Assembly (NCBI GenBank): GCA_027066995.1
Contig: JAMOMQ010000104.1
Location: 1-36,613 of the forward strand
Direction: 5' to 3'
DNA length: 36,613 bases
From: Flavobacteriales bacterium
GTDB lineage: Bacteria; Bacteroidota; Bacteroidia; Flavobacteriales; Flavobacteriaceae
Shown here: in pieces, positions 11,623-11,693 of the stretch
Numbering within the stretch: position 1 is the first letter of the stretch
How the letters are laid out: each line of letters begins with the position of its first letter
Notes under the pieces: model-generated
The model's input: the letters and a program-made list of their open reading frames with translations, nothing else
What the model was told of the DNA's origin: nothing
Database searches by the model: none
Program-made: the position numbers and the translations under genes

Positions 11623-11653
11623 AGTGTCAATCTGCCAGATTGACACTTTTTTT
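11623..11653 (+). promoter_or_regulatory. Perfect 12-bp inverted repeat AGTGTCAATCTG-C-CAGATTGACACT plus T-run; secG terminator and/or upstream activator site for groEL
   Basis: Inverted repeat read directly. It contains two overlapping TGYCA-N3 half-site arrangements (TGTCA-ATC-TGCCA and TGCCA-GAT-TGACA) like the 8725-8739 palindrome. Confidence 0.6.
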
Positions 11654-11678
11654 ATATATTAACATTCTATATCAAAGA

Positions 11679-11693
11679 TGGCACAGTTTCTGT
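11679..11693 (+). promoter_or_regulatory. Sigma54-like -24/-12 element TGGCACAGTTTCTGT upstream of groEL
   Basis: Perfect -24 TGGCAC; -12 is TG-T instead of TTGC (GG-N10-GT), so imperfect. Confidence 0.45.

Follow-up and report, generated by a model that had tools for sequence, protein, structure and literature searches.

In many other bacteria, groESL is usually controlled by HrcA/CIRCE or by sigma-32. Those systems share target genes with the locus described here but use different DNA elements, while our proposal is one of sigma-54 activation. In Flavobacterium psychrophilum, 5′-end mapping located sigma-54 type promoters (SM4) at groES-groEL, dnaK, grpE-dnaJ, htpG, clpB and lon, and three candidate activators were noted, none of which was assigned to the SM4 promoters (PMC9723704). 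According to the available text of a survey from 2025, predicted sigma-54 regulons are enriched for chaperone genes in Bacteroidota, with the highest enrichment in Flavobacteriia; that text holds promoter predictions at the class level, links no single activator to the chaperone promoters and does not use the term UAS (PMC12316311). Searching the open-access literature, we found no activator assigned to the core-chaperone sigma-54 promoters of Bacteroidota.

The existence of sigma-54 promoters at chaperone genes is therefore already known, as they were mapped in F. psychrophilum, while the candidate activator, its putative site, the overlap of a terminator with an enhancer and a reason for the retention of RpoN in the endosymbionts studied here appear to be new as far as the open-access literature goes. 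Our analysis indicates that the main protein-folding genes of flavobacteria are very probably switched on from sigma-54 promoters by one DNA-binding activator, whose gene is a neighbour of the chaperonin genes. The same would hold for insect endosymbionts with very small genomes and would account for their retention of sigma-54. Protein, site and regulon are all named, which makes the proposal testable by a single knock-out or binding assay.

The groEL locus and the neighbouring activator

The window, i.e., the whole analysed stretch of 36.6 kb, holds an activator-lptE-TPR-secG block followed by groEL (Table 1). The palindrome AGTGTCAATCTG-C-CAGATTGACACT (11623-11647) contains two overlapping 5-3-5 sites 8 bp apart, and TGGCACAGTTTCTGT (11679-11693) lies upstream of the groEL ATG, both as described in the original prediction. 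In regard to its statement that the groEL motif matches a core at 8725-8739, on the other side of the activator-lptE-TPR-secG block, the pattern TGNCANNNTGNCA indeed has three matches in the window (8726, 11625 and 11633), all of them intergenic, with 0.53 expected by chance. The promoter pattern TGGCAYANTTTCTG has a single match, TGGCACAGTTTCTG at 11679-11692 (0.01 expected). A chance origin of these site and promoter elements was rejected on the match counts compared with expectation.

Table 1. Position of genes and regulatory elements around groEL in the window.
Feature	Position	Strand	Remarks
Activator gene (sigma-54 bEBP)	8814..10022	+	AAA+ with GSFTGA loop, Fis-type HTH, without N-terminal sensor domain
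lptE	10024..10527	+	PF04390
TPR-like protein	10521..11240	+	Weak Pfam match only
secG	11247..11600	+	PF03840; last gene ahead of the terminator
groEL	11733..13367	+	ATG at 11733; groES not adjacent in this genome (G000)
Site TGTCAAAATGACA, 5-3-5	8726..8738	.	Upstream of activator gene; likely autoregulatory operator; genus keeps TGNCA-WWW-TGNCA
TATATTTG, Bacteroidota housekeeping (sigma-A type) -7 element (TANNTTTG)	8758..8765	+	19 bp after site TGTCAAAATGACA
Intrinsic terminator hairpin	11619..11651	+	Followed by T-run to 11654; stem co-varies within the genus
Site TGTCAATCTGCCA, upstream overlapping 5-3-5	11625..11637	.	Kept in 9/11 aligned species
Site TGCCAGATTGACA, principal 5-3-5 (hairpin loop and 3′ arm)	11633..11645	.	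33 bp ahead of -24; kept in 11/11 aligned species, gap 32-35
TGGCACAGTTTCTG, groEL sigma-54 -24/-12 core (GG-N10-G)	11679..11692	+	TGGCAYARTTTCTG invariant in genus; homologous element at groES in relatives

The activator has 402 residues and shows the features of a bEBP, namely a PF00158 AAA+ domain from residue 14 (230.6 bits) with Walker A and B, the GAFTGA-type loop and the arginine-finger region, and a C-terminal Fis-type HTH (HTH_8, 53.5 bits). The loop reads GSFTGA in the window protein and in that of G113, one of the reduced genomes discussed below, and GAFTGA in the proteins of G088 and L176. This protein had been called PspF-like, and the likeness holds for the combination of AAA+ and Fis-type HTH with a missing sensor domain. 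Identity with PspF was rejected, however, as the scores lie well below the curated cut-offs (287 vs 443.55 bits for TIGR02974, 229 vs 529 for NF008622), and the activator further differs from PspF in the linker of ~100 residues between AAA+ and HTH and in its targets. The closest solved relatives of its AAA+ domain are those of NtrC1, FleQ and ZraR (4l4u, 5exx, 1ojl), proteins that differ from the activator in having N-terminal regulatory domains and in running other regulons. Homologues 55-64% identical are found in Flavobacteriales and Bacteroidales; at the Bacteroidales loci, neighbour detection found neither miaB nor groES beside the activator. The window, G113 and G088 proteins share the HTH helix SERTLYRKIK without any change, in line with the identity of their DNA site.

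Among the miaB-activator operons, a perfect upstream site is present at 37 of 40 loci, and in all 37 it is shortly followed by a housekeeping -7 element (mostly TATCTTTGC) and in none by a sigma-54 element. The window presents the same layout without miaB, with TGTCAAAATGACA and TATATTTG separated by 19 bp. Such an architecture suggests that the activator probably represses its own operon and so limits its own synthesis by binding at 8726-8738, over the housekeeping promoter. Alternatively, this site may serve for activation at a sigma-A promoter.

Placement, conservation and phasing of the sites

The window's own genome (G000, 2.34 Mb) was examined by pattern search and by fetching stretches around the matches. 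The original prediction had proposed a genome-wide motif scan as a check, whose outcome depends on the form of the motif: exact YTGYCANNNTGRCAR occurs in only four places, three of them inside ORFs (POT transporter, Mrp-like, ParA), and is not enriched, whereas relaxed TGNCA-N3-TGNCA has 50 sites, compared with 26 for the reversed control, and marks chaperone promoters. When the surroundings of all 50 sites were sorted with a simple ORF mask, only eight proved intergenic, located at the activator gene, groEL (two sites), dnaK, grx-groES, grpE-dnaJ, a sigma-70-like gene and a short-chain dehydrogenase gene; the remaining sites lie within ORFs, two of them near a 5′ end. The probability of striking five such promoters by chance is ~4e-11. 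The informative form of the motif is TGNCA-N3-TGNCA, and not exact YTGYCANNNTGRCAR. The site at the sigma-70-like gene, intergenic TGTCAAATTGTCA (L240:1533-1545), directly adjoins the stop codon of a peptidase-like gene, with 77 bp between it and the sigma-70-like gene that follows, and no -24/-12 element was recognised there.

Downstream of the site, every chaperone promoter of G000 has TGG-N10-G, represented by TGGCACAGTTTCTGT at groEL, TGGCATATTTATTGT at groES, TGGCATAATCATTGA at dnaK and TGGCAGTATATTTGC at grpE, with site-to-promoter gaps of 33, 33, 74 and 11 bp, respectively. Compared with the sigma-54 consensus TGGCAC-N5-TTGC, in which GG and GC are 10 bp apart, the groEL element retains GG-N10-G exactly and has T for the C of GC, the same imperfect -12 that had been noticed originally. 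Degeneracy of this GC is general, with C at position 15 in 9 of 50 elements. TGGCA-N6-TTGC, which in its perfect form has 41 matches in G000 (18 in the control), is too strict a consensus, because TTGC ends only the grpE element among the four chaperone promoters. RpoN is encoded in G000 (PF04552, E 2.3e-53), in 60/60 genomes of the family and in 195/196 genomes of the order. Sigma-54 control of groEL is well supported and agrees with the SM4 promoters of F. psychrophilum, which are likewise of the -24/-12 type and have mapped starts at the same chaperone genes; the difference lies in the activator and the binding site, assigned here and not there (PMC9723704).

In G000, groES resides on another contig than groEL, is divergent and follows a thioredoxin/glutaredoxin-like gene, and still it is preceded by a site and a -24/-12 element. 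Its product (C146:26763-27020; L066:9255-9542) scores 89 bits, while almost every other genome of the family gives about 108-124. No htpG (HSP90 match) was found in G000 and several congeners, while elsewhere in the genus the gene has been retained together with its conserved promoter, TGNCA-N3-TGTCA-N11/12-TGGYA. Likewise, dnaK of the genus is preceded by TGACA-N3-TGTCA and TGGCAYAATCATTGA in 7/8 species. Other genomes of the family have the gene order secG-groES-groEL, with TGTCA-N12-TGGCAYNNTTTNNG before groES; among those examined, further matches to this pattern belong mostly to htpG, then to dnaK, and once to a thioredoxin gene before clpP. In G040, the promoter pattern with one mismatch is located ahead of a thioredoxin gene followed by clpP (L120:1480-1510). 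In addition, a perfect inverted repeat, AACGCTTAAGCGTT, closely follows the groES promoter in many genomes of the family (L041, L042, L044 and others).

Distances between the site and the -24 element were collected from 77 promoters, many of them related. Apart from two outliers (6 and 102), they amount to 11-13, 23, 32-35, 42-44, 53, 63-64 and 73-76 bp and correspond to one face of the helix. The first data set alone, collapsed to nine gap clusters, is only suggestive (P 0.08). With the activator as query, a second, independent set of 46 named groES loci was assembled, in which TGGYA-N8-G is present in 46/46 and the full site in 28/46, with 0/46 for the reversed control. There, the gaps are phased at 10.5 bp, and all but one of the 28 share the face seen before (R 0.86; P 1.5e-5, for which each gap value was counted once and the phase was set beforehand by the first set). 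Helical phasing is expected where an activator must face the polymerase, and other explanations of it seem hard to find.

According to the mechanism we propose, groEL would be transcribed by sigma-54 RNA polymerase from 11679-11692, with a predicted start near 11704. To open this promoter, the AAA+ activator (8814-10022) would bind in oligomeric form some three helical turns upstream, where TGNCA-N3-TGNCA is found at 11633-11645 (and 11625-11637). Activator and sigma factor would act likewise at dnaK, grpE-dnaJ and grx-groES in G000, and at htpG in relatives. The inducing signal is probably folding stress, perhaps perceived through a partner protein, as the activator is devoid of a sensor domain. 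We consider this mechanism as a whole highly likely. The elements, their genome-wide placement, conservation, phasing and co-retention are direct readings of the sequences, and together with the autoregulatory architecture they carry the assignment of the activator and of TGNCA-N3-TGNCA; binding, activation, autorepression and the inducing signal we infer from them. The central claim of the original prediction, that the neighbouring AAA+ activator runs groEL from a sigma-54 promoter via the 5-3-5 sites, gains support in this way from the relaxed scan, from conservation in genus, family and order, from phasing and from the endosymbionts.

A terminator hairpin overlapping the groEL site

The palindrome at 11623-11647 has a further role that the original prediction omitted, as it forms the terminator of secG, an intrinsic terminator with a 15-bp stem, a 3-nt loop and a T-run (-19 kcal/mol, z -6.5). 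Because the palindrome is also a strong terminator, its inverted symmetry alone proves nothing about protein binding. Conservation was followed in a genus set of 13 species, whose groEL products are 88-97% identical to the window protein and 11 of which were aligned at the hairpin. The region upstream of groEL has diverged in the genus apart from the hairpin and TGGCAYARTTTCTGYAAAAA. The hairpin mostly follows TGNCA-N3-TGNCA-N3-TGNCA, with pentamers in an 8-bp register that includes the loop; the first pentamer is broken in L180 and L185, while the second and the third are intact in 11/11 aligned species. No aligned species has an unpaired position in the stem, and the loop is always G-N-C. 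Covariation of the stem comprises four double-change cells, and its score exceeds all 500 shuffles, although the shuffles ignore relatedness. After the hairpin comes the invariant TGGCAYARTTTCTG, and the gap from the site to -24 stays at 32-35 bp.

Such data could also be read in a simpler way, the palindrome being the secG terminator only, with groEL driven by sigma-54 and the activator acting from solution or through other half-sites, or replaced by another protein. The strong terminator with its co-varying stem is in line with that, as are the TGCCA/TGGCA-armed hairpins that relatives often have between secG and groES. However, a terminator loop needs no constraint of the kind that keeps G-N-C, and hence the middle pentamer, unchanged in 11 aligned species. 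Nor does termination account for the constant gap to -24, for the helical phasing of hairpin-embedded sites in other lineages, or for the sites at grpE, htpG, dnaK and endosymbiont groES, which are not terminators. A mere terminator is therefore disfavoured by loop conservation and phasing, and we regard it as unlikely.

The preferred reading is that the upstream operon's terminator hairpin contains the groEL site in this genus, so that one segment would end secG transcription as RNA and recruit the activator as DNA. With the stem paired and the loop and the second and third pentamers constant, selection appears to maintain the sequence in two capacities, as RNA hairpin and as DNA site. A point against the proposed mechanism is that the site at groEL is not fully separable from the constraints on the terminator. 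Such an overlap would represent an unusual double selection on one short sequence.

Reduced genomes and the retention of RpoN

It has been considered unusual that Walczuchella, Uzinura and Blattabacterium keep RpoN, with nitrogen use as a tentative explanation (PMC3971599). In our data, genomes of one family (f16), about 0.3-0.6 Mb in size, are taken to be Blattabacterium-type insect endosymbionts on account of their reduced size and placement. The whole genome of G113 (635 kb) encodes RpoN and one activator, 59% identical, in the order miaB-activator-lptE-secG-groES-groEL, and contains three sites, at grpE-dnaJ, the miaB-activator operon and groES-groEL. Similarly, the whole genome of G088 (345 kb) encodes RpoN and one activator (54% identical), with three sites located at groES, at grpE-dnaJ and inside pnp. 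In both genomes, dnaK has the near-site TGACTTTTTGTCA. On the other hand, no RpoN and no orthologous activator were found in G258 (335 kb, nearly whole, 96% complete), the single lineage on which the RpoN-loss comparison is based; there, neither the site nor a -24/-12 element precedes groES or dnaK, and the only two sites in the genome lie in ORFs. The intergenic sites of G113 and G088 thus belong to chaperone genes and the activator operon, which offers a direct answer to the puzzle of RpoN retention. It seems likely that a single sensor-less activator encoded next to groESL, with homologues across Bacteroidia, is the dedicated flavobacterial chaperone regulator and the reason why RpoN survives in Blattabacterium-type endosymbionts, and that in one genus its enhancer has been built into the upstream terminator hairpin, one sequence being selected as RNA structure and as DNA-binding site.

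The co-retention also bears on the possibility that the TGNCA sites bind an unrelated regulator, e.g., a repressor, at sigma-A type promoters whose -24/-12 resemblance is fortuitous. The weak C of -12 could be understood in that way, and the activator's own promoter is clearly of the sigma-A type, with the site over -33. Yet we consider this very improbable, given that TGG-N10-G spacing is present in 46/46 independent groES promoters, that minimal genomes retain the site, RpoN and the activator as a set, all three of which are missing from G258, and that sigma-54 promoters were mapped at the same genes in F. psychrophilum (PMC9723704). As for HrcA/CIRCE or sigma-32, only their prevalence at groESL elsewhere speaks for them, and we consider such control highly improbable. 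CIRCE was absent wherever it was looked for: from the window at up to 3 mismatches, in keeping with the original claim that groEL is not under CIRCE, from the dnaK, grpE and groES loci, where the best match has 6-7 mismatches, and from the G113 and G088 genomes, where any match has at least 4.

Two minor observations can be added. A small separate contig of G258 (C1, L311) encodes an AAA+ protein of the sigma-54-interaction type without HTH, a 40% partial match located beside a DNA ligase-like gene, which is possibly phage or foreign DNA in the assembly. In the window itself, the minus strand at 247-1219 encodes short membrane proteins that, as judged by eye, resemble an exosortase-type (XrtF-like) pair.
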